DNA of 64,000 bases, taken from NCBI RefSeq assembly GCF_024171725.1, contig NZ_JAMTCG010000002.1, positions 558,001-622,000 of the forward strand, in the 5' to 3' direction. This DNA is from Williamsia serinedens (GTDB lineage: Bacteria; Actinomycetota; Actinomycetes; Mycobacteriales; Mycobacteriaceae). A program made the position numbers and the translations under genes. Below the pieces are notes generated by a model. That model was not told where the DNA came from. It did no database searches and saw only the letters and a program-made list of their open reading frames with translations. Of this stretch, positions 3,934 through 36,513 are shown piece by piece (position 1 is the first letter of the stretch; each line of letters starts with the position of its first letter).

Positions 3934-4875
3934 ATGTCGATTCGTAGCCTCCGGACGCGCCTGACCGCTGTCCTCGTGGCCACCGTGACCGCCGCGGGTG
4001 TCGCCGGCGTCGTCTCCACAGCCCCTGCCCAGGCCCGCCCCGCGGACGCGCAGATCTACTCGGCCGCGATGGGGAAGAACATCCCCGTCCGCGTCCTCCG
4101 CGCCGCCAACGGCAGCAACAGCGCGCCGACGCTCTACCTGCTCGACGGTCTCCGTGCACCGAACAACGACAACGGCTGGCTCATCAACACCGACGTCGTC
4201 CGGTTCTTCTCGAACAAGAACGTCAACGTCGTGCTGCCCTACGGCGGTGCCGGCACGTTCTACCAGGACTGGCAGAACCGCGACCCCGTGCTGGGCAACG
4301 TCAAGTGGGAGACCTTCCTGACGCGTGAGCTCCCGGCGGCCATGAAGGCGCGCTTCGGCTCCGACGGGGTGCGCAACGCGATCGCAGGCCTGTCGATGAG
4401 CGGCACCTCCGCGCTGATCCTCGCGACCGACCACCCGAACATGTACCAGGGCGTGGCCTCCTTCAGCGGCTACCCGGTGAGCAGCGAGCCCGGCTTCGCG
4501 CAGGGCATCGGCCTGGCCGTCGGCCAGATCGGCGGCGACGTCAACAACATGTGGGGCGTCTGGCCCGGCGGTCAGTGGCTCGCCAAGGACCCCGCCCTGC
4601 ACGCGGGCAACCTGCGCGGCAAGCGCGTCTACATCTCGGCCGGCCTCGGTGGCTCGAACATCGACCCGACCGCCGACCCGGTGAAGTTCGCGCAGTTCGT
4701 GCCGCTCGAGACCGCGGCCGGTATCGCCAGCCAGCAGTACATCGGCACCCTGCGGATGAACGGGATCAACCCCGTCACCCACATCACGCAGGACGGGACC
4801 CACTGGTGGACCTACTGGCAGGCCCGCCTCAAGGAGGCCTGGTTCTCCACCCTCGGTCCGGCGCTCGGCGCCTGA
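3934..4875 (+). CDS. Antigen-85-type mycolyltransferase / secreted esterase
   Basis: 313 residues. The N-terminal signal peptide ends at APAQA/RP (about residue 34), so the product is exported to the cell wall. It has an alpha/beta-hydrolase fold with nucleophile Ser in GLSMSGTSA, matching the Ag85/corynomycolyltransferase elbow, and the C-terminal catalytic His in DGTHWWTYW. The conserved NTDVVRFF and GGAGTFYQDW segments are typical of Ag85 proteins, which transfer mycolic acids between trehalose monomycolate molecules or onto arabinogalactan. This is the main evidence that the organism makes mycolic acids. The frame runs open far upstream, but the signal peptide starts at this ATG, with AAAGG 14 bases before it. 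Monocistronic. Confidence 0.93.
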   Translation: MSIRSLRTRLTAVLVATVTAAGVAGVVSTAPAQARPADAQIYSAAMGKNIPVRVLRAANGSNSAPTLYLLDGLRAPNNDNGWLINTDVVRFFSNKNVNVVLPYGGAGTFYQDWQNRDPVLGNVKWETFLTRELPAAMKARFGSDGVRNAIAGLSMSGTSALILATDHPNMYQGVASFSGYPVSSEPGFAQGIGLAVGQIGGDVNNMWGVWPGGQWLAKDPALHAGNLRGKRVYISAGLGGSNIDPTADPVKFAQFVPLETAAGIASQQYIGTLRMNGINPVTHITQDGTHWWTYWQARLKEAWFSTLGPALGA

Positions 4876-4916: not shown

Positions 4917-6200
4917 ATGACCACACCGGGCTCCGGTCGTCTGTCCCGCCGTCTGTCGACGACGCAGGCGACCGTCATCGGGCTCGGCTCGATGATCGGT
5001 GCCGGGGTCTTCACCGCCTTCGCCCCCGCGGCGGCGGCCGCCGGCTCGGCGCTGCTCGTCGGACTCGCCGTCGCCGCCGTGGTCGCCGTCTGCAACGCCC
5101 TCTCGTCGGCGCAGCTCGCGGCGCAGTACCCCGAGGCCGGCGGCACGTACCTCTACGGCCGGGAACGGCTGGGCGAGTGGTGGGGCTTCGCCGCGGGCTG
5201 GATGTTCGTCGTGGGCAAGACGGCCAGCTGCGCCGCGATGGCGCTCACCGTCGGGACCTATCTGGCCGGTGAGACGTGGGGTCCCGTGGTGGCTGTCGTC
5301 GCCGTCGCCGCGGTGGTGACCGTGAACTGTCTCGGCGTCACACGGACGGCGACGGCCACCGCGGTCATCGTCACGGCAGTTGTCGCGGTGCTCGTCGTGG
5401 TGGTGGTGACCGGGGTCGTCGGTGGAGACCCTCGTGCGGACAACGTGGCGATCAGGGTCGACGGTGGGAGCGTCCACGGCGTGCTGCAGGCCGCCGGTCT
5501 GCTGTTCTTCGCCTTCGCGGGGTACGCGCGGATCGCCACCCTCGCCGAGGAGGTCCGTGATCCGCGGCGGGCCATCCCGCGTGCCATCGTCGGCGCGCTC
5601 ACCTGCGCCCTGCTCGTCTATGCGGCCGTCGGCGTGACCGCGGTGGCCGTGCTGGGTCCCGACGACCTCGCCGACACCCCGACGCCCCTGGTCGCCCTGG
5701 TGTCCGCGAGCGGAGCCGACGTCATCGCGCCTCTCGTCCGTGTCGCGGCGGCGGTCGCCGCACTCGGCGCGCTGCTGGCGCTCGTCGCCGGGATCGGGCG
5801 CACCGGGCTGGCCATGGCCCGGACCGGCGACCTCCCCCGACCGCTCGCCGCGGTGCACCCGCGGTTCTCGGTGCCGCACCGGATGGAGATCACCGTCGGT
5901 GTGATCGTCGCGGTCGCAGTGCTGACGGTGGATCTGCGTGGCGCGATCGGCTTCTCGTCGTTCGGGGTGCTGCTGTACTACCTGGTCGCGAACCTCGCCG
6001 CGGCGACGCAGACCGGATCTCACCGCCGCTACCCGATGGCCGTCCACGTGGTCGGCGCGATCGGCTGTGTGGCGCTCGCCGTGAGCCTCCCGGTCGCGTC
6101 CGTCGTCGCGGGGATCGTGGTCGCCGCGGTGGGAGGTCTCTACCGGCTGGTCGTCAGGCGCGGGTCGACGAGCGGGCCGACTTCTCCGCGTTCCGGATGA
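4917..6200 (+). CDS. APC-superfamily amino-acid permease
   Basis: 427 residues, about 12 hydrophobic helices. The first helix has the APC signature IGLGSMIGAGVFTAF, whose unwound GxG segment binds the substrate amino group in this family. PEAGGTYLYGRERLG is the next conserved block, and FFAFAGYARIATLAEEV is the helix-6 motif. It probably imports an amino acid or amine by cation symport; specificity is not evident. It follows the mycolyltransferase gene by 41 bp. Its last 47 bases overlap the end of the convergent SDR/DUF2867 gene (6154), so the two transcripts are antisense at their 3' ends. Confidence 0.88.
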   Translation: MTTPGSGRLSRRLSTTQATVIGLGSMIGAGVFTAFAPAAAAAGSALLVGLAVAAVVAVCNALSSAQLAAQYPEAGGTYLYGRERLGEWWGFAAGWMFVVGKTASCAAMALTVGTYLAGETWGPVVAVVAVAAVVTVNCLGVTRTATATAVIVTAVVAVLVVVVVTGVVGGDPRADNVAIRVDGGSVHGVLQAAGLLFFAFAGYARIATLAEEVRDPRRAIPRAIVGALTCALLVYAAVGVTAVAVLGPDDLADTPTPLVALVSASGADVIAPLVRVAAAVAALGALLALVAGIGRTGLAMARTGDLPRPLAAVHPRFSVPHRMEITVGVIVAVAVLTVDLRGAIGFSSFGVLLYYLVANLAAATQTGSHRRYPMAVHVVGAIGCVALAVSLPVASVVAGIVVAAVGGLYRLVVRRGSTSGPTSPRSG

Positions 6201-7647
6201 TGTCGCGCACCAGCGTCGCGAAGATGACCTTGTGTGCCGGCAGCTGGCCGTACCAGTACCCGAGTCCGGCAAGGCCCTTCGGGTAGTAGATCGTCCGCTG
6301 GCGCAGTCGGGCGCCGGACCCGTCGGGCTCCACGCCCAGCTCGAGCCACGCCGTGCCGGGCATCGTCGTCTCGGCGCGCAGTCGGAGCAGCCTGCCGGGT
6401 TCCACGTCCTCCACCCGCCACCAGTCGAGGGGCTCGCCCTTGGTGGGCTCGCCCGTCGGGCGACGCTTCTTCGGGCCCGGCCCCCCGCCGACGACGAGGT
6501 CGACGGCGGTCCGCGCACGCCACACCGCATCGAGGGTGAACCACCCTGTGTCACCACCGATCGACGAGACGGTGTCCCACAGCTGCTTCGGGGTGATGCG
6601 GGTGGTCGCGGTCCGCTCCTCGACCATCACGTCCTCACCCGCCCACGCAGGATCGCTCGGGAGCGGCTCGGCCGGCGACACCGACGCGTCGGCGTTCGAC
6701 CACGGCACGCTGGTGTCGGCGCGACGCACGCGGTCGAGTGCGGCGTCGAGCGCCTGCCGGTAGGTCAACAGGCCGCCGTCCGGGCGGGGGATCACCTCGT
6801 CGATGTCGTGGTTCTTCATCACCGCGTCGCACTCGAGGGACTCGACCAACGGCCGCGCGAGCGACGTGGGGATGGGGGTGACCGTGCCGACCCACCGGCT
6901 CGCCAGGGTGGGCGTCAGGTACGGCAGCACGATCATCCGTCGCTTCGGCAGACCCGCGGCCTGCGCGTAGAGCTGCATCATCTCGCCGTACTCGAACACC
7001 TCGGTGCCACCGATGTCCCAGGCACGACTCTCGGGCACCGTCGCCGACGCCGCCTCGACGAGGTAGTGCAGGGCGTCGCGGACGGCGATGGGCTGGATGG
7101 TGTTGTGCACCCAGCGCGGCGTGGTCATGACGGGCAGACGCTCGGTGAGGTGGCGGATCAACTCGAACGACGCCGAGCCCGAACCGATGACGACACCGGC
7201 CTGCAGGACGACCGTCTCGATACCCGACGCGAGCAGGATCTCCCCGACCTCCACCCGCGACGCGAGGTGCTTCGACAGCTTCGTGCCGTCGGGGTGCAGC
7301 CCGCCGAGATAGACGATCCGGGAGACGCCGCAGGCCTTCGCCGCCGCGGCGACGTTGCGCGCCGACTCGGCCTCCTCCTCCTTGAAGTCGCCGGTGCCGT
7401 CACCGCCCATCGAGTGGACGAGGTGGTAGACGACGTCGACGCCGTCGAACGCCCGCATCAGCGAGTCGCGGTCGGAGAGGTCGCCCTGCACCACGGTGCC
7501 CTCGCCGACCCAGGGGGCGTCGTCGAGTTTCGCCGGGGTCCGCGCCAGCGCCCGGACGGTCCATCCCGCGGCGGCGAGGCGGGGCGCGAGGCGGCCCCCG
7601 ATGTAGCCGGTCGCCCCGGTGACGAGGGCCGTTCCGGTGGTGCTCAT
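6154..7647 (-). CDS. SDR/NmrA-like NAD(P)-binding protein with C-terminal DUF2867 domain
   Basis: 497 residues. N-terminal extended/atypical SDR domain (about 1-300) with the nucleotide motif VTGATGYIGGRLAPRL and an LVHSMGG segment. It lacks a clear YxxxK catalytic pair, so it may be a sensor or NAD(P)-binding protein rather than a classical reductase. The C-terminal 150 residues (ITPKQLWDTVSSIGG ... GLGYWYGQLPAHKVIFATL) match the DUF2867 pattern usual in such fusions. Its ATG overlaps the stop of the upstream methyltransferase gene by 4 bp (ATGA), implying translational coupling. The 3' end overlaps the permease gene by 47 bp. Function unknown; the architecture is common in actinomycetes. 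Confidence 0.85.
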   Translation of the reverse strand: MSTTGTALVTGATGYIGGRLAPRLAAAGWTVRALARTPAKLDDAPWVGEGTVVQGDLSDRDSLMRAFDGVDVVYHLVHSMGGDGTGDFKEEEAESARNVAAAAKACGVSRIVYLGGLHPDGTKLSKHLASRVEVGEILLASGIETVVLQAGVVIGSGSASFELIRHLTERLPVMTTPRWVHNTIQPIAVRDALHYLVEAASATVPESRAWDIGGTEVFEYGEMMQLYAQAAGLPKRRMIVLPYLTPTLASRWVGTVTPIPTSLARPLVESLECDAVMKNHDIDEVIPRPDGGLLTYRQALDAALDRVRRADTSVPWSNADASVSPAEPLPSDPAWAGEDVMVEERTATTRITPKQLWDTVSSIGGDTGWFTLDAVWRARTAVDLVVGGGPGPKKRRPTGEPTKGEPLDWWRVEDVEPGRLLRLRAETTMPGTAWLELGVEPDGSGARLRQRTIYYPKGLAGLGYWYGQLPAHKVIFATLVRDIIRNAEKSARSSTRA

Positions 7648-8499: not shown

Positions 8500-8670
8500 C
8501 TAGGTGCCGTCGGTCGTCCCGTCCGACCCGCCGAACGAGTGCTCGCCGGGGTCGATCTCGCCGGTGGGCTCGTCGGCGTCGGACTGGCCCGCCTCGTACA
8601 CCTTCTCCTCGCGGCGGATCTCCTCGGTCTCGCCGACCTGCGACTCCTTGTCGTGCGGGAAGTTGCTCAT
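8500..8670 (-). CDS. Small acidic hydrophilic protein, unknown
   Basis: 56 residues beginning MSNFPHDKESQVGE, rich in Glu, Asp and Gly, with no hydrophobic stretch and no Cys, so probably a cytosolic, largely disordered peptide. It sits 7 bp upstream of the PrmC-related gene on the same strand and so probably starts that operon. The same frame continues open toward 9588, but that extension is antisense-type sequence through the Gly/Pro-rich gene. The ATG at 8670 follows a weak GAGCACC. No function assigned. Confidence 0.6.
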   Translation of the reverse strand: MSNFPHDKESQVGETEEIRREEKVYEAGQSDADEPTGEIDPGEHSFGGSDGTTDGT

Positions 8671-28616: not shown

Positions 28617-28733
28617 GGTCACGACGGTAGGTACGTGTCGGTGTGCTGTACACCAGCCTGCGACCGTTGCGTCTGAGTCGTGTCCGCGGATCACGGCCGG
28701 ATAACGCACGGCAGGCGTGCCGAGGCAGGGCAA

Positions 28734-30422
28734 TCAGGCCCTCGGCCCTGCCAGCTGGGCCTCGTGCGTCGACGACAGCCGCTGCGATCCGTCGGGCGCG
28801 GTGAACGCGTGTTCCACGCGCACGGACAGATCGTCGCCGTCGGCCGACAGCGTCATGACGCCGTTGTCGAACCAGGGGCCCGCGCTGGTGTCCCAGGTGA
28901 GGGGGAGGTCCGCGACACCCGCCGCGCGGGCGAGCCGACGCATCAACCGCACCAGCGGTTTCCGGCGCGCCAGACGGTTCACCACGCGGACCGGGCGTTC
29001 CAGCGGGTTGCGGAACGGCGACATCGTCAGCTGGATGAGAGCGGTGCCCCGGCCCGGCGAGCGGTCGACGAGATGGGCGTCGGCGATGTAGGAGCAGTGG
29101 ACGTCGCCGGACACCCACACGACGGAGGCGGGTGCGTCCGGCCCGTCCGACAGCTCCTCGGCGAGCCGGGCCATGTCGCGGAACGAGTTGTCGAACGCGG
29201 CCCAGTGCTCCAGATCCAGTGCCAGACGGGCCTTCTCGCCGAGACGCGCGCCGGTCCGGCCCCATGCGCCCTGCGCCACGGCCTCGTCCCACTGCTCGAG
29301 GTGGTGCAGTGCGGGGAGCATGAGGTACGGCAGCGACGTCCCGAACACGACGTGCCGGGCGGGGTGGTCCGTGGCGGCCTGGACGACCCACTTCCACTCG
29401 CCGTCGTCGACGATGCCGCGCCGGTCGGGAGCGAGATCACGGGAACACCGCGAGTCGATCATGATCAGTCGCAGCGGGCCCAGGTCGCGCGTGTAACTCC
29501 ATCGGGCGGAGGAGGGTTCGGCGTCGGCGCGCAGCGAGAAGTCGGCGAGGATCTGTTCGCGTTCCGCGTCGTCGACGGCGAACCGCACCCGCGCGTAGTG
29601 TTGGTCCCGGTCGAGGGCGTCGGGGTCGAGATTGCCCAGGTGCTGGTAGATCCAGTACGAGGTGAAGGCCCCGATCACGCGGCGGCGCCACCACGGCTTC
29701 GCCGACGTCTCCTGTCGCCACGACCACGACGAGTTCCAGTCGTCGCGCAGGTCGTGGTCGTCGAGGATCATGCAGCTCGGCACGCAGGCCATCAGCCCGC
29801 GGACCGCCGGTGTCCCCCAGGACTCGTGGTAGAGCCAGGTGTACTCCTCCAGATCACAGATCTCGTCGCGGACCTCCGGCGTCAGGTCCGGGTCGGGCGA
29901 GTGCGCGGCGCGGTGACGCCGCAGGCGGGCCAGCACCTCGCGTGACGGGTCGTCGGCGTACACCTGGTCACCGAGGAACAGCAGCAGATCCGGGTGCCGG
30001 TCCACGGCCTCGGTCCGGACGCGTCCGGCCAAGCCCGTCAACGCGTCGGCGCCGATCCGCTCCAGCGACTCGGCGTCGTGGTTCTCACCGCGCCGACAGG
30101 AGCCGAACGCGATGGACGGACGGCGGTCGGGCCCGCTGGTGCGCAGGTGACACGCCACGCCGGCCGGTGGCCAGACGTGCTCGTCGTCGCCCCCGTCCTC
30201 ACCAAGTCGCACGGTGTAGTCGACGAGTGTGTCGGCGGGGAGACCGCGCACGATCACGAGCGCGAAGTGATGGCCGCCGACACCCCAGGTCTCCTCCGTC
30301 GCGGACACCCCGACCGCGGTGTCGACCGTGACGGTGCAGGGCCGGTCGGTCTCGACCCACACCGTCGCCCGGCTGTCGTCGACGAATCGGAGGATCGGTC
30401 CGAGGACCAGCGCGGGTGCCAT
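28734..30422 (-). CDS. PhoD-like metallophosphatase (alkaline phosphatase D family)
   Basis: 562 residues. A beta-rich N-terminal domain (1-105) is followed by the metallophosphoesterase domain: FGSCRRGEN, LLLFLGDQVYADDPS (metal Asp), MILDDHDLRDDWN (catalytic DDHD), and C-terminal VVWVSGDVHCSYIADAH. These match PhoD/metallophosphatase enzymes using Ca/Fe. There is no visible signal peptide (starts MAPALVLGPILRFVDD), unlike Tat-exported PhoD, so this is the cytosolic actinobacterial subgroup; substrate uncertain. Stands alone between two differently oriented units. Confidence 0.87.
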   Translation of the reverse strand: MAPALVLGPILRFVDDSRATVWVETDRPCTVTVDTAVGVSATEETWGVGGHHFALVIVRGLPADTLVDYTVRLGEDGGDDEHVWPPAGVACHLRTSGPDRRPSIAFGSCRRGENHDAESLERIGADALTGLAGRVRTEAVDRHPDLLLFLGDQVYADDPSREVLARLRRHRAAHSPDPDLTPEVRDEICDLEEYTWLYHESWGTPAVRGLMACVPSCMILDDHDLRDDWNSSWSWRQETSAKPWWRRRVIGAFTSYWIYQHLGNLDPDALDRDQHYARVRFAVDDAEREQILADFSLRADAEPSSARWSYTRDLGPLRLIMIDSRCSRDLAPDRRGIVDDGEWKWVVQAATDHPARHVVFGTSLPYLMLPALHHLEQWDEAVAQGAWGRTGARLGEKARLALDLEHWAAFDNSFRDMARLAEELSDGPDAPASVVWVSGDVHCSYIADAHLVDRSPGRGTALIQLTMSPFRNPLERPVRVVNRLARRKPLVRLMRRLARAAGVADLPLTWDTSAGPWFDNGVMTLSADGDDLSVRVEHAFTAPDGSQRLSSTHEAQLAGPRA

Positions 30423-30501: not shown

Positions 30502-30855
30502 TCAGTCGACGGAGGAGTCGACCGCGAACGGCGGCGTCGACTTGCCGTTGATGCGGAAACGACCCCAGAAGTCGGGATCGCCGAGATACGCCTCCCGCGC
30601 GCTGTGAGGCGTCGACACGATGACGCGGATGCGCTTGGCGTCCCCGACGATCGCCGACAACCGGTCGTTCGCGCCGACGCGCCCGATCCAGCGGTACACG
30701 CCGTCGATCGGTTCGCGGTACCCCTTCAACTCCACGTTCACCGGGATCTCGATGCCCTTGACGATGATCGACGCGGTGCCGACGTAGTCGGAGTCGTCGT
30801 GGTGCGACCGTGGTGTCGCGCGGCCCGAGTCCCGAATGTCCAGAAACGTGTTCAT
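30502..30855 (-). CDS. DUF4873 domain protein
   Basis: 117 residues. GTASIIVKGIEIPVNVELKG then YREPIDGVYRWIGRVG and RFRINGKSTPPF follow the pattern I associate with DUF4873, a small beta-rich domain found in mycolata alone or fused to flavin monooxygenases (recalled, not searched). Start at 30855 chosen for GGGGAGGACAACGG upstream; an open frame to 30933 exists. Divergent from the AurF-like oxygenase operon at 31020, suggesting a functional tie. Biochemical role unknown. Confidence 0.72.
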   Translation of the reverse strand: MNTFLDIRDSGRATPRSHHDDSDYVGTASIIVKGIEIPVNVELKGYREPIDGVYRWIGRVGANDRLSAIVGDAKRIRVIVSTPHSAREAYLGDPDFWGRFRINGKSTPPFAVDSSVD

Positions 30856-30942
30856 CCGTTGTCCTCCCCTGTCCCTCTCCCCGGCGTCGTCGTCCGAGCA
30901 CCCTGCCCCGAGCTCGTTGTGACGCGACACCAAAGTGCATCA

Positions 30943-30969
30943 GATCGTGCGCCTGCTCACGCGACGATC
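30943..30969. promoter_or_regulatory. Imperfect dyad in the DUF4873/oxygenase divergent promoter
   Basis: GATCGTGCG (30943-30951) faces CGCGACGATC (30960-30969), a near-symmetric pair 50 bp before the oxygenase start and 88 bp before the DUF4873 start. No regulator gene is adjacent. Weak evidence. Confidence 0.3.
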
Positions 30970-31019
30970 CCTTAAGTTCGTGACCTCGCCACAGGAGATG
31001 ACGGCGGAAAGGGTGGCAG

Positions 31020-32027
31020 ATGTCAGGGCTCGTGGAGCCGCGGGACGTCACGGTCGACACCACGGCCGGGACCGATCCCTCGCGCGCGCAACGTCGTCCG
31101 ACCCGACGACGGTCGGTCGCCGACCGAGAGGCCGCGGCACAACGCTTCCTCATCGACACCGTCGACGACCGGTTCGACCCGGACATCGACATCGACTGGT
31201 CGGCGCCGCCGTCGCCGGACGCGGCGTGGCTGCCCGAGGGACTCGTCGGCCTCGCGGGCACACGCCCGTGGCGTCGGCTCACGCCGGCGGCACGCGTGGA
31301 ACTCGGGCGACACGGACTCGTCGACCTGCTGACGCTCGCGGCGTTCGCGACGACGGCGCAGTCGATGCTGGAGTTCCGACGCATCGGTGAGGACCAGACG
31401 CTGTGCGACGACACGGCCCGATGGGGGTTCGCGACCATCAACATCCGGACCACCAGCACCGCCATGTTCGGACGGCTCGTGACCGTGACCGGTCTGCCGC
31501 CCGGCCGGCACGCCACGCTGGCCCGCCGATTCGAGCGGTACACGCTGCTGACGCCGGCCGGTGGGACGACCGCCGCGCTGTACCTGCTGGGGGAGTCGTT
31601 CGTCCACGGGGTGGCGGCCGCGCTCGCGGAGGACCCGGGCGTGCAGCCGCACGCCCGGCAGGTCGCCGACATCTACCTCCGGGCGACGCGACGTCTGCGG
31701 GAGTTCGCCCATCTGGACTTCGCGACGACCGTGCCGGGACGGAACCGTCTGCTGCTGACCTGGTACTCGATCGCCGCGGCCGTCGTGATGCGCGCTGTCA
31801 CCCGGGCACTCGACGACGCCGACGCGGAGCACGCTGCCGGGGTGCCGCGGTGGCGCCTGCGGTTGGCCCGACGCCGCGCCCCCATGCGGGCCCGACGCGC
31901 GCACATCCTGTACGGCGAGTTCCTCGAGGCGGCACGGGAAGCGGGCATGTTCACCGACCCGGTGAGCCGGCTGCTGGTGCGGAGCACGGGGGCACGACTC
32001 GACACATCAGCGGAGGGGGACCTGTGA
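31020..32027 (+). CDS. AurF-like diiron oxygenase paralogue with lost metal ligands
   Basis: 335 residues, clearly homologous along its length to the next gene (shared DIDIDW, STxMFGRL, PHxRQ landmarks). The AurF-family iron ligands are largely missing. Where the neighbour reads INAEIG this protein reads TTAQSM; EETRHSTMFGRL becomes IRTTSTAMFGRL; IHVLEEARH becomes IYLRATRRL. Only one Glu (LLGES versus LLVEE) remains. It therefore probably cannot bind a diiron centre and may be a structural or regulatory partner of the active paralogue, as in heteromeric diiron enzymes. It overlaps the next gene by 4 bp (GTGA), so the two are made together. ATG preceded by GAAAGGG. Arg-rich C-terminal third. 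Confidence 0.8.
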   Translation: MSGLVEPRDVTVDTTAGTDPSRAQRRPTRRRSVADREAAAQRFLIDTVDDRFDPDIDIDWSAPPSPDAAWLPEGLVGLAGTRPWRRLTPAARVELGRHGLVDLLTLAAFATTAQSMLEFRRIGEDQTLCDDTARWGFATINIRTTSTAMFGRLVTVTGLPPGRHATLARRFERYTLLTPAGGTTAALYLLGESFVHGVAAALAEDPGVQPHARQVADIYLRATRRLREFAHLDFATTVPGRNRLLLTWYSIAAAVVMRAVTRALDDADAEHAAGVPRWRLRLARRRAPMRARRAHILYGEFLEAAREAGMFTDPVSRLLVRSTGARLDTSAEGDL

Positions 32028-33022
32028 CCATCGAGAGCATCGCACCCGAGAGGCGCGCACCGGGTTCGGACACCGGGACGAGCCGGGACGTCGAGGCCGA
32101 GCGACGGGAGCTCGCCGAACGTCTGCTGCGGTCGACCGCCGACCGCGCATACGACGGCGACCTCGACATCGACTGGGACGCGCCGATCGCCCCGGGCCGT
32201 CCGTGGGCCACCGAGAAGCGGGGCACGCTGTTCGGCACCGAGATCTACGAGGCGCTGACCGAGGAGCAGAAGCTCCGACTCAGCCGCGCCGAGGCGGTCG
32301 CGATCCTGACCTACGGCATCAACGCCGAGATCGGGTTGTGCACCAACCTGCTCCGCGGCGTCTTCCACGGCCGCGACTTCTCCGACGCGAGCACGCTGTA
32401 CTCGCTGAGCGAGATCGCCGAGGAGACGCGGCACTCGACGATGTTCGGTCGGCTGATCAACAAGACCGGCATGGAGCCGTACCGCCGTCCCAAGGCACTG
32501 TCGATGCCGTTGCGGCTCATCGGGTTCATCCCGCACGGGCCCATCGTCTACGCCGGGACCCTGCTGGTGGAGGAGGTCCTCGACCGCGTGCAGCGCGAGT
32601 CGATGGCCGACGGGCGCATCCAGCCCCACGTGCGTCAGCTCATGAAGATCCACGTGCTGGAGGAGGCGCGGCACATCACGTTCGCGCGCAACGAACTCGC
32701 CGACGCGATCGAGCGGTCGGGGCCGGTCGCGCTGGCCGTGAACCGAGTGCTCTGCGCGGCACTCACCCTGTTCGTGATGCCGACCCTCGTCGACTCGCAG
32801 GCGTACAAGTCGGTCGGCATCGGGCAGCTGAAGGGGTGGATGACCGCCCAGCGGTCGCCGCGCTACCGCGAGAACGCGACCTTCATGTGCGGCCCGATGC
32901 TGCGGTATTTCCACGAGGCAGGGCTCATCAAGGGCCGGGTGACCACCGCGCTGTACCGCGCGTCACGAGCGCTGCCCGACGACGTCCTGCAGGCCGTCCG
33001 CGGCGAGGAGCGTGACCGGTGA
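32024..33022 (+). CDS. AurF-family diiron oxygenase (intact ligand set)
   Basis: 332 residues from the GTG at 32024. The AurF-type ligand pattern is complete: Glu in NAEIGL, Glu-x2-His in EETRHS, Glu in LLVEEVL, and His-x3-Glu-x2-His in HVLEEARH. AurF itself oxidises p-aminobenzoate amines; relatives oxidise other amines or hydroxylate. Second gene of a five-part locus: degenerate paralogue, this enzyme, an SDR (GTGA overlap) and a flavin/2Fe-2S reductase (GTGA overlap) that can supply electrons. Substrate unknown; a lipid or steroid-like alcohol is possible given the SDR partner. Confidence 0.88.
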   Translation: MTIESIAPERRAPGSDTGTSRDVEAERRELAERLLRSTADRAYDGDLDIDWDAPIAPGRPWATEKRGTLFGTEIYEALTEEQKLRLSRAEAVAILTYGINAEIGLCTNLLRGVFHGRDFSDASTLYSLSEIAEETRHSTMFGRLINKTGMEPYRRPKALSMPLRLIGFIPHGPIVYAGTLLVEEVLDRVQRESMADGRIQPHVRQLMKIHVLEEARHITFARNELADAIERSGPVALAVNRVLCAALTLFVMPTLVDSQAYKSVGIGQLKGWMTAQRSPRYRENATFMCGPMLRYFHEAGLIKGRVTTALYRASRALPDDVLQAVRGEERDR

Positions 33023-33852
33023 GGGACTTCCGGGACAAGGTCGCGGTCGTCACCGGGGCGGGGTCCGGGATAGGCCGTGCCGTCGCACTGCAGCTCGCCG
33101 AACGTGGTGCCCGACTCGCGCTGAGCGACATCGACATCGAGGCGGCGACCGAGACCGCACGGATGGCGGAGAAGGCCGGCGCGGAAGCGGTGCCCCATCG
33201 GCTCGACGTCGCGGACCGGGCAGCGTTCCTCGACCACGCCGACGGGGTGCGCGGGCATTTCGGTGGCGTGAACGTCGTCGTCAACAACGCTGGGGTCTCG
33301 CTGTCGGCCACGGTCGTCGACATGCACTGGGACGACTTCGACTGGATCGTCGGTATCGACTTCGGCGGCGTCGTCAACGGGACGAAGGCGTTCCTGCCCG
33401 ATCTCATCGCGTCGGGCGACGGACACATCGTGAACGTCTCGTCGGTGTTCGGCCTGATGTCCATCCCGGGTCAGAGTGCCTACAACGCCGCCAAGTTCGC
33501 CGTGCGCGGGTTCACCGGGTCGCTCCGTCAGGAGATGATCAGCGGGGGACATCGCGTCGGCGTCACCTGCGTGCACCCCGGCGGCATCAAGACGAACATC
33601 GTCCGCAACGGGCGGCAGAGCGGCGAGTACGCCCAGGACCTGCAGGTGAAGGACGAGAACTTCCAGCGGATCGCGTTCACCCGTCCCGAGACGGCGGCGA
33701 GGAGGATCATCCGGGGGATCGAGAAGAACAAGCCGCGGGTGTTGATCGGTCCCGACGCGCGGCTGTTCGACACCTTGCCCCGACTGCTCGGCGGGCGGTA
33801 CCAGGACGTGATGGCCCGTCCGTTGGCCGCCGGCCAGCGGATCGGTTCGTGA
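33019..33852 (+). CDS. Short-chain dehydrogenase/reductase in oxygenase operon
   Basis: 277 residues. Classical SDR: cofactor motif VTGAGSGIGRAVALQL, NNAGVS, catalytic Ser in NVSSVFG and Tyr-x3-Lys in SAYNAAKFAV. DIDIE after strand 2 suggests NAD(H) preference. C-terminal extension past residue 250 (KPRVLIGPDARLFDTLPR) is typical of actinobacterial SDRs with lipid-like substrates. GTG start overlapping the AurF-like stop; end overlaps the reductase gene. Probably oxidises or reduces the product of the diiron enzyme. Confidence 0.9.
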   Translation: MRDFRDKVAVVTGAGSGIGRAVALQLAERGARLALSDIDIEAATETARMAEKAGAEAVPHRLDVADRAAFLDHADGVRGHFGGVNVVVNNAGVSLSATVVDMHWDDFDWIVGIDFGGVVNGTKAFLPDLIASGDGHIVNVSSVFGLMSIPGQSAYNAAKFAVRGFTGSLRQEMISGGHRVGVTCVHPGGIKTNIVRNGRQSGEYAQDLQVKDENFQRIAFTRPETAARRIIRGIEKNKPRVLIGPDARLFDTLPRLLGGRYQDVMARPLAAGQRIGS

Positions 33853-34895
33853 GCGTCGGCCCGCGCGGTCGCGCCCACGAGCTCGAGGTCGCCGAGATCA
33901 TCCGGGAGACCGCCGACTCGGTCTCGCTCGTCCTCGACGTCCCCGACTCCCTCGCGCACCGCTTCCGGTATCACCCGGGCCAGTTCCTCACCCTGCGCGT
34001 CCCGGTGGAGGACACCGGATCTGCTGTGGCACGGTGCTATTCGATGTCCAGCTCGCCGCACCTCGACGACGACCTCATCCTCACCGTCAAGCGGGTGCCG
34101 GGTGGTCGGGCGTCGTCGTGGCTGTGCGACGAGGTGCAGGTCGGTGACCGGCTGACCGTGCTCACTCCGTCCGGGTCGTTCTTCCCCCGTGCCTTCGACG
34201 AGGACTTTCTGCTCGTCGGCGCCGGCAGCGGGATCACGCCGCTGATGTCCATCGCCACGTCGGCGTTGATGGGTGGGGTGCGGGCTGTGCGCCTGTTCTA
34301 CGCCAACCGCGACCCCGCGTCGGTGATATTCGTCGACGAGATAGCCGAACTGCAGGCGGAATTCGATGACCGGTTCAGCGTCGAGCACTGGCACGAGTCC
34401 GAGCGGGGACTTCCGTCGCCGGACGCGATGGAGGCCGAACTCGCTGCGTGGTCCGGGCACCGGGTGTGGGTGTGCGGGCCCGGGCCGTTCATGGCCGTCG
34501 TCGAGAAGGCCGCGGAGTCCGTCGGGATCCCCGCGGACCGCGTGCACACCGAGCGGTACCGGTCGCTCTCCGGCGATCCCTTCGCCGATGTCGACGTCAC
34601 CGTCGTGAACGACGACGACGACGCGCAGGTGACGGTGACCCTGCGCGGTGACACCGTCGACCTCGCCTGGCCGCGGTCCGCGACGCTCCTCGACGTCCTC
34701 CTCGCCGCCGGACACGACGCGCCGTTCTCCTGCCGCGAGGGCGAGTGCAGTTCGTGTGCGTGTCGGGTGCTCAGCGGGGACGTGACGATGCGCAAGAACG
34801 ACACCCTCGTCGACTCGGACATCGCGATGGGCCTCACCCTCGCCTGCCAGGCCGTCCCCCGCTCGGAGGAGATCACCGTCACGTTCGACTCCTGA
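33849..34895 (+). CDS. KshB/Hmp-type ferredoxin reductase (FAD, NAD, C-terminal 2Fe-2S)
   Basis: 348 residues. FNR-like FAD domain with RCYSMSSSP (RxYS), NAD domain with LLVGAGSGITPLMSI and VWVCGPGPFMAVV, then a plant-type ferredoxin domain with Cys in CREGECSSCACRV and a fourth Cys near LTLACQA. This order (FAD, NAD, 2Fe-2S) matches KshB, the reductase of 3-ketosteroid 9-alpha-hydroxylase, and other class IA-like reductases. Here it closes the diiron-oxygenase operon, so it most likely delivers NAD(P)H electrons to the AurF-like enzyme. GTG start overlaps the SDR stop. Confidence 0.92.
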   Translation: MSVGPRGRAHELEVAEIIRETADSVSLVLDVPDSLAHRFRYHPGQFLTLRVPVEDTGSAVARCYSMSSSPHLDDDLILTVKRVPGGRASSWLCDEVQVGDRLTVLTPSGSFFPRAFDEDFLLVGAGSGITPLMSIATSALMGGVRAVRLFYANRDPASVIFVDEIAELQAEFDDRFSVEHWHESERGLPSPDAMEAELAAWSGHRVWVCGPGPFMAVVEKAAESVGIPADRVHTERYRSLSGDPFADVDVTVVNDDDDAQVTVTLRGDTVDLAWPRSATLLDVLLAAGHDAPFSCREGECSSCACRVLSGDVTMRKNDTLVDSDIAMGLTLACQAVPRSEEITVTFDS

Positions 34896-34962
34896 GCAGG
34901 ACGCGTACCGTGTGAGGTGGTTATCGACTCACGGTCGAAAACCTCGACCAACGGAGCGGCTC

Positions 34963-36513
34963 ATGGACGTCGACGATCTCGTCGTGGTGGGTGCCGGCGT
35001 TGCCGGTCTGACCGCCGCACTGAACGCCGCCGAGCGCGGGATGTCGGTGACCGTCGTCGCCGGGGCCCGCGACGGTTCCGTCGCCGGGGGCACGTCGACC
35101 GCCTATGCCCAGGGCGGGATGGCCGCGGTGGCGACGGACCGGGGTGACTCGCTCGACGCGCACGTCGCGGACACCCTCGCCGCCGGCGCCGGTCACTGCG
35201 ACCCTGTCGCGGTGCGGTCGATCCTCGCCGACGGCCCCGCGGCGATCGCCGAGCTGGTCGCGCGTGGCGTCGCTTTCGACCATGACCCTGCCGGCGGTCT
35301 CGCCCGCACCCGCGAGGGTGGCCACGGTGTCCGACGGATCGTGCACGCCGGGGGTGACGCCACCGGGGCACACCTCCACGCCGCGCTGTGGTCGGCGGTC
35401 CGTCACGACGCCCGTATCGCGGTGCGTCGCGGGCTGATCCGCGACATCCCGGTGGTGGACGGACGCGCTGTCGGCGTGATCGACGACGACGGCCGCTTCG
35501 TGCCTGCGCGGTCGGTGGTGCTCGCCACCGGAGGGCTCGGGGCGCTGTGGACGGCGACCACGAACCCGCCGTCCTCGGTCGGTTCCGGGATCGCGCTCGC
35601 GCTGCGCGCCGGCGCCACCGTCGGCGACCTCGAGTTCGTGCAGTTCCACCCGACGATGCTGTTCACGCCCGGCGCGGACGGTCGGTGCCTGCTCATCACC
35701 GAGGCGCTGCGCGGGGAGGGGGCGCGACTGGTCGACGCCGACGGCACCTCGGTGACCGCCGGTGTCCACCCGCTGGGCGATCTCGCTCCCCGCGACGTCG
35801 TCGCGTCGGCGGCCCACCATGCGATGGTCGCGACCGGGGCGCCGTGCGTGTTCCTCGACGCGCGGCACGTCCCCGATCTCGTCCGTCGCTTCCCGACGGT
35901 CACCGCGGGTGTGCGCGCCGCCGGGTTCGACCCCGTCCGTGAGCTGATCCCCGTGGTCCCCGGGGCGCACTACCACTGTGGGGGCGTGCTCACCGACCTC
36001 CGCGCGCGGACCGACGTGCCCGGGTTGCTCGCGGCCGGCGAGGTCGCGCGGACCGGGTTGCACGGGGCGAACCGTCTCGCCTCGAACAGCCTCACCGAGG
36101 CGGTGGTCATGGGTCTCCGCGCCGCGGAGACGGCGTCGGAGGACCGGACGGTGTCTGCCCGGCCGTGTGTCGGCCCGACCCTCCCGGACCGTGGGATCGG
36201 GCCGTCGGCGCAGGTCATCCGAGCGGCGATGACGGCCGGTGCCGGTGTCGACCGGGACGCCCTCGGACTCCGGAACGCCCTGGACGCAGTCGTTTCCGGC
36301 GGGACGGCGGACACGGCCGACATGGCTCTGGTGGCGCGCGCGGTCGTCACCGCCGCGCTGGCGCGGACCGACAGCGTCGGCTGCCACCGCCGCTCAGATG
36401 GCATCTCACAGGGTGACAGCGACCGCGTGATCACGGCGAGGCTCGATCGCGACACCGGGGACCTCCTCGTGTCCCCGACGGTCCCCGCCGGCGACCCCGT
36501 GGCCGCTGTCTGA
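34963..36513 (+). CDS. nadB: L-aspartate oxidase NadB
   Basis: 516 residues, usual length. FAD enzyme making iminoaspartate for NAD synthesis. VVVGAGVAGLTAALNAAERG is the dinucleotide motif; GGTSTAYAQGGMAAV, the substrate site HPTMLF and REL, and the HYHCGGV and GLHGANRLASNSLTEAVV blocks are characteristic of NadB and separate it from SdhA/FrdA. Start at 34963 preferred (GGAG upstream) over an in-frame 34912. No nadA or nadC follows: instead there is a 21-bp repeat cluster. Normally nadA-nadB-nadC cluster in actinomycetes, so this may be a second, stand-alone copy. Confidence 0.92.
   Translation: MDVDDLVVVGAGVAGLTAALNAAERGMSVTVVAGARDGSVAGGTSTAYAQGGMAAVATDRGDSLDAHVADTLAAGAGHCDPVAVRSILADGPAAIAELVARGVAFDHDPAGGLARTREGGHGVRRIVHAGGDATGAHLHAALWSAVRHDARIAVRRGLIRDIPVVDGRAVGVIDDDGRFVPARSVVLATGGLGALWTATTNPPSSVGSGIALALRAGATVGDLEFVQFHPTMLFTPGADGRCLLITEALRGEGARLVDADGTSVTAGVHPLGDLAPRDVVASAAHHAMVATGAPCVFLDARHVPDLVRRFPTVTAGVRAAGFDPVRELIPVVPGAHYHCGGVLTDLRARTDVPGLLAAGEVARTGLHGANRLASNSLTEAVVMGLRAAETASEDRTVSARPCVGPTLPDRGIGPSAQVIRAAMTAGAGVDRDALGLRNALDAVVSGGTADTADMALVARAVVTAALARTDSVGCHRRSDGISQGDSDRVITARLDRDTGDLLVSPTVPAGDPVAAV

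Follow-up and report, generated by a model that had tools for sequence, protein, structure and literature searches.

Two overlapping AurF-family genes of Williamsia serinedens, here termed A and B, probably encode a heteromeric AurF-family oxygenase in which A represents the non-catalytic subunit. Both are located in a stretch of 64,000 nucleotides (the window) next to genes for an SDR-family oxidoreductase, a flavin/2Fe-2S reductase and a DUF4873 protein. We infer the contact between A and B, as well as their reaction, from sequence. Loci and genomes compared are given by L and G numbers, respectively.

Gene organization of the A-B module

The module comprises the following features (coordinates of the window):

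31020..32027, + strand: A, AurF-family gene retaining one of the seven diiron ligands (335 aa, ATG start)
32024..33022, + strand: B, AurF-family diiron oxygenase gene with 7 of 7 ligands (332 aa, GTG start)
32024..32027, + strand: GTGA shared by the stop codon of A and the start codon of B
33019..33852, + strand: SDR-family oxidoreductase (Pfam adh_short, 2.2e-48; GTGA overlap with B)
33849..34895, + strand: reductase (FAD, NAD and 2Fe-2S domains; start codon GTG; GTGA overlap with SDR stop)
30502..30933, - strand: DUF4873 protein gene, divergent from A (Pfam PF16170, 9.2e-30; first listed start codon)
30934..31019: divergent intergenic region of 86 bases, presumed promoter region

Since a GTGA is shared not only by A and B, but also by the B and SDR genes (33019-33022) and by the SDR and reductase genes (33849-33852), the four genes form one chain in the window. 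Shine-Dalgarno-like purine runs are present upstream of both A and B, and a promoter scan of the 86 bases between the DUF4873 gene and A found no sigma-70-like site. The reductase searches reported below were made with 33852-34892, i.e., with an N-terminus one residue short.

The region 3' of the module (34912-36513) holds a gene which we take to resemble that of L-aspartate oxidase; such a gene is also found 3' of the module in three Williamsia relatives (L062, L063 and L069). These relatives possess in addition an intact third AurF gene (L062 4785-5702, L063 4597-5649, L069 4818-5924) between genes for an aldehyde dehydrogenase and a PhoD-like protein. It is missing from the window at 28707-28745, where the alignment of the flanks with L062 breaks off at 4725 and resumes at 5722; about 960 bases were thus either lost in the window or gained in the relatives.

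Homology of A and B and loss of the diiron ligands

A and B share 28 % identity over 298 aa in a gap-free BLASTP alignment (E 6e-29), and both exceed the gathering cut-off (29.6 bits) of the Pfam AurF family (PF11583), A with 84.8 bits (E 7.3e-24) and B with 232.8 bits (E 5.8e-69). At E values up to 1, A matches AurF alone and B matches AurF plus one chance-level family (E 0.23). Together with the GTGA overlap, this bears out the initial annotation, made from the letters of the DNA, in its description of two adjacent, overlapping and homologous genes.

The metal ligands of AurF are, in order, E101, E136, H139, E196, H223, E227 and H230. B was said to keep them and indeed does so at all seven positions (E102, E134, H137, E183, H210, E214 and H217), while the corresponding residues of A are T, R, S, E, Y, T and L. 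The ligand among two neighbouring glutamates of helix 3 was recognized by the spacing of 27 residues to the first histidine of helix 4 (183 to 210 in B), which agrees with the residues given for AzoC (198, 225; PMC6783550) and DnfA (182, 209; PMC9478400); E192 of A therefore counts as a kept ligand, the sole one in this protein. Thus, the view that A had lost nearly all ligands holds for six of the seven, the kept helix-3 glutamate having been overlooked. Likewise, the replacement of NAEIG by TTAQS was read out of register, as NAEIG aligns with FATTA, but the exchange of Glu for Thr is correct. Ligands at shifted positions were not seen in A, the alignment with B being gap-free. Compared to the seven ligands (four carboxylates, three histidines) that mark an AurF-type enzyme, B has the full set and A one, which, judged by these residues, is too few for a diiron site and makes A an AurF member by descent only, not an AurF-type enzyme. 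A profile match to AurF is hence in itself no guarantee that a gene encodes an enzyme.

Ligand conservation was analyzed in an alignment of 91 non-duplicate AurF-like proteins encoded at the loci retrieved, consisting of 67 intact proteins, 18 A-type proteins, 5 of a second degenerate set (see below) and one odd gene product (L134). All seven ligands are present in 67/67 intact AurFs, so chance is an unlikely source of the losses in A. None of the 18 A-type genes has an equivalent of H137 or E214, and the same applies to E130, Q190 and E213, which are invariant in the 67 intact proteins. The remaining ligands are lost less uniformly (E134 in 13, E102 in 10, E183 in 7, H217 in 5 and H210 in 3 of 18), leaving one of seven in the A protein of the window and in L074 and two to four in the other 16. 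The simplest reading would be that the His137 and Glu214 positions were lost first and the others later, lineage by lineage. Besides these losses, the A-type proteins share a signature (L100, L117, F119, D131 and R134) that is complete in 18/18; the same residues occur in 7, 4, 2, 21 and 18 of the 67 intact AurFs, respectively. Four of the five fall within positions 116-134, past the first ligand position, suggesting this stretch of A as the place to look for an interface.

AlphaFold models based on 13-row alignments reached a pLDDT of 79.7 for A and 83.7 for B (pTM 0.78 each). In Foldseek comparisons, the best match of the A model was AurF (3chu), a weak one (E 1.3e-3, TM 0.41, rmsd 13.1); AurF also led for B (E 1.2e-4), and CmlI (5hyh) gave a TM of 0.61. 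At the sequence level, AurF was not found in the PDB, either with the two proteins themselves or with alignments of their types; for both, the link to AurF in the PDB came from fold comparison alone. A still looks AurF-folded in a model that is too coarse to measure a site.

Distribution and pairing of A and B

A profile of A-type genes was searched against 401 genomes of the host's family and the loci were then read, yielding 19 A-type genes (window, L062, L063, L069-L079 and L130-L134) in at least 17 of the 401 genomes; the latter is a lower bound, genomes with weaker matches having been read in part. The closest named loci belong to an uncultured Williamsia (L062) and to Williamsia deligens (L063). 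The A-type matches of G022, G220 and G602 (at 8536) were listed with one internal TGA; on reading, the A-type frames there proved to be free of stops over 333 to 355 aa. Among the seven other genomes of the genus, A is present with an open frame in three, B adjoining in each, and was not found in four, which we do not count as the absence or frameshift of A in relatives that the initial annotation had set against its own reading.

Outside the host's family, no A-type gene was found among 298 genomes drawn from the order or among 394 drawn from the class. The former gave matches at 1e-30 in G000 and G062 alone, both of the host's family; in the latter, nine genomes matched at 1e-60, i.e., two of the family and seven others (best 7.3e-66), and the seven read were intact AurFs. 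A plasmid search with A gave no match.

Each of the 19 A-type genes shares its locus with an intact B-type gene. Conversely, a search with B in 301 genomes matched 41 of them at 1e-75 and gave 30 loci, which a tree placed in the clade of B (13) or outside it (17); of the 11 remaining genomes, nine have loci that lie outside this clade or duplicate such loci, and G283 and G014 were left unplaced. A-type and B-clade genes were found in the same 13 of 301 genomes. The two genes are adjacent on the same strand in 17/19 loci, B starting between 4 bases before the end of A, an overlap possible in several loci, and about 126 bases after its stop (plausible starts). In L134, an A-clade gene with 0/7 ligands and its intact partner (5207-6235 and 6250-7314) are convergent, and in L071 A and B are about 2.9 kb apart; coupling of A and B is therefore not universal.

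Descent, co-divergence and selection

In a first tree (79 rows), A-type and B-type genes form sister groups with a support of 97 for the joint group, a relation that assumes the root to lie among other AurF genes. If so, the tree shows that a duplication at the origin of this lineage gave rise to A. A second tree, in which ten ligand or near-ligand columns were masked (60 rows), supports an A clade including L134 (100/100), the assignment of L134 deriving from this tree, as well as a B clade (99/96).

The branching orders of the two clades are close, with some forks weakly supported and two groups differing inside. Common to both are (L079,(L075,L077)), L073 plus the group of L078, L071 and L132, and L074; further matching groups are L076, L133, L130 and L134, so that the convergent genes of L134 likewise hold corresponding places, and (L131,(L070,L072)) with the Williamsia genes. 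Pairwise distances of A and B correlate with r 0.90 across 14 of the 19 pairs, i.e., excluding the five pairs found later; none of 20000 permutations was as high (best 0.70). Dropping three of the four Williamsia pairs (11 pairs left) gave a correlation of 0.87, again with 0/20000 permutations as high. Such a correlation is a sign of joint inheritance and by itself no proof of contact; co-occurrence and co-divergence are also expected from neighbouring genes inherited together. Occurrence in the same 13 genomes, joint divergence and a reductase gene in every A-type locus support one part of the earlier proposal, namely that A is a pseudo-oxygenase that goes with B, and indicate that it has been maintained; a function of A as scaffold or specificity subunit may come in addition.

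Divergence is more rapid in A than in B, with mean pairwise differences of 0.59 and 0.37, respectively. Relative to the nearest relative, L062, A has a dN/dS ratio (NG86) of 0.15 and B one of 0.16, compared with 0.06 in the SDR and 0.09 in the reductase gene; the ratios of A and B amount to 0.20 and 0.16 with L063 and to 0.49 and 0.31 with the more distant L069.

Neighbouring genes and the reductase

To count neighbouring genes, all 19 A-type loci were searched by tblastn with genes of the module, some of the queries being drawn from these very loci. The flavin/2Fe-2S reductase gene is present in 19/19 loci and the DUF4873 gene in 18/19, window included (missing in L131). An SDR of at least 66 % identity occurs in 16/19, none being found in L074 and only distant ones in L131 and L134, and a flavin monooxygenase of at least 63 % identity in 9/19, none of them among the four Williamsia loci. 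The initial annotation had the SDR and reductase complete the oxygenase system, which fits the constant reductase and the mostly close SDR, but is incomplete in that it omitted the DUF4873 protein and the flavin monooxygenase. The best NCBIfam match of the reductase is PaaE (TIGR02160); as its 245.3 bits remain below the cut-off of 420.8, the protein is a relative of PaaE rather than PaaE itself.

The same genome harbours a second locus (L085, G000:C5:288000-304000) that encodes a DUF4873 protein, one intact AurF, a flavin monooxygenase, an SDR and a reductase. Since this cluster has a single intact AurF, A is not needed in every such system. Taken together, this single-AurF set and the two intact AurF genes of L084 suggest an ancestral cluster with one AurF that was doubled later. 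L085 would provide a built-in control in the same genome, next to the graded stages of site loss.

A second set of degenerate AurF genes

Five further loci (L081, L082, L083, L088 and L135) contain tandem AurF pairs in the order intact then degenerate, opposite to that of A and B. SDR and DUF4873 genes are present in 5/5 and flavin monooxygenase and ABC1-kinase genes in 4/5 of them; tblastn gave no match for the reductase (0/5). The degenerate genes keep E183 (5/5) and the H210 position (4/5) and, unlike the A-type genes, E130 (5/5) and an acidic residue at E213 (5/5). Trees place the 19-gene A clade apart from this set. Joining both degenerate sets was rejected by the AU test with 50 rows (p 0.010), but not with 60 rows and the ligand columns masked (p 0.105); a grouping of the second set with the intact genes adjacent to it likewise withstood the test (p 0.48). 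These loci possibly represent an independent case of a dead AurF partner.

Proposed function and alternatives

On the preferred reading, A and B would be two subunits of one oxygenase. B, with its intact ligands, would hold the diiron site and activate O2, and the FAD/2Fe-2S reductase, judging from its domains and constant linkage, would pass electrons from NAD(P)H to B. A may have lost its metal site after the duplication and been kept as a non-catalytic partner replacing one half of a homodimer of the AurF/CmlI/AzoC type, where it could hold B active, shape the substrate entrance or serve as docking site of the DUF4873 protein or the reductase. Either the substrate or the product would be converted by the SDR. 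The AurF-family reactions in the available descriptions are N-oxidations; other oxidations are not excluded here. With a fixed dead partner and a reductase in every locus, this lineage would lend itself to testing why diiron hydroxylases have a second subunit.

With clearly more reserve, one may speculate that the two-subunit architecture known from multicomponent diiron hydroxylases has evolved anew within the AurF family, i.e., an obligate A-B heterodimer with one half dead and a PaaE-like reductase, maybe even twice (the 19-gene clade and the five loci of opposite order), and that less eroded dead halves may hold one metal on His, His and Glu.

Alternatively, A could be a separate functional protein, its AurF fold binding a ligand or a single metal, that precedes or follows B in the pathway and is not complexed with it. 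This appears unlikely to us, even though the site is partly preserved in the majority of A-type genes (H210 in 15/18, H217 in 13/18, E183 in 11/18) and A and B stand apart or convergent in L071 and L134: the A protein of the window lacks the equivalents of both H210 and H217, no other catalytic motif was noticed on informal inspection, and the prevailing same-strand adjacency with its possible 4-base overlaps fits a complex better.

A function of A as a prozyme-like regulator, i.e., as a dead paralogue controlling whether B is active instead of being a permanent structural subunit, is rather improbable. Catalytically dead paralogues that activate their partner are described (PMC5201418, PMC3663545), but the overlapping genes of the window appear co-expressed, not separately controlled; the present evidence would fit a regulatory as well as a structural role. 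That A is merely a decaying duplicate, as its six lost ligands and faster divergence might suggest, is scarcely credible in view of 19 open genes in one clade with a branching close to that of B, the signature in 18/18 and the low dN/dS relative to L062; the same open frames, dN/dS ratio and signature residues disfavour a pseudogene.

Comparison with known systems

AurF, CmlI and AzoC are described as stand-alone homodimers of one gene product (PMC6783550), unlike the A-B lineage with its dead partner. In case of DnfA, the cluster also encodes an FAD/2Fe-2S reductase, DnfB, the addition of which in vitro did not significantly change DnfA activity (PMC9478400); linkage of genes is therefore no proof of electron transfer. 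A and B resemble AurF, CmlI, AzoC and DnfA by profile and predicted fold, and B also by its seven ligands, but the descriptions compared mention no metal-less paralogue as partner. To our knowledge, the natural electron donor of AurF-like oxygenases is often unclear.

A DUF4873 gene close to an AurF gene, as in 18/19 A-type loci, has a counterpart in the lipothrenin pathway, where the AurF-like oxygenase LitN adjoins the DUF4873 protein LitO. N-hydroxylated products are abolished by loss of litN and reduced by loss of litO, which ties DUF4873 to AurF-type N-oxygenation by experiment in this pathway; in contrast to the A-type loci, the part of the gene table compared names no second AurF-like gene (PMC10616846). 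Another AurF-like oxygenase with a helper protein is TsnB7 with TsnB6 (SaAmOx and SaAmOx-AS, "amidooxygenase accessory subunit"; PMC13418202, PMC5719088). The descriptions compared do not give the family of TsnB6, which is the one candidate for prior art and the main risk to the novelty of a dead AurF partner.

A live and a dead subunit are also paired in methane and toluene monooxygenases (alpha and beta subunits) and in yeast Rnr2/Rnr4. AibH1H2 is described as an Mn/Fe-dependent heterodimeric hydroxylase (PMC10401708). The dead diiron partner as an idea is already known; within the literature searched, including the combination of AurF, diiron and pseudoenzyme, no report of a dead AurF paralogue was found.

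A precedent is provided by PaaA/PaaC, described as a heterodimer of a catalytic diiron subunit and a structural subunit of the same fold (17 % identity) that is served by the reductase PaaE (PMC4498308). Pfam assigned neither A nor B to the PaaA/PaaC or bacterial multicomponent monooxygenase families, and the pair is known here from its genes, whereas PaaA/PaaC is an established heterodimer. Nevertheless, A and B likewise form a paralogous pair with one intact member, one member devoid of the metal site and a reductase gene, and an arrangement comparable to PaaA/PaaC would be the best reading of the A-B module.
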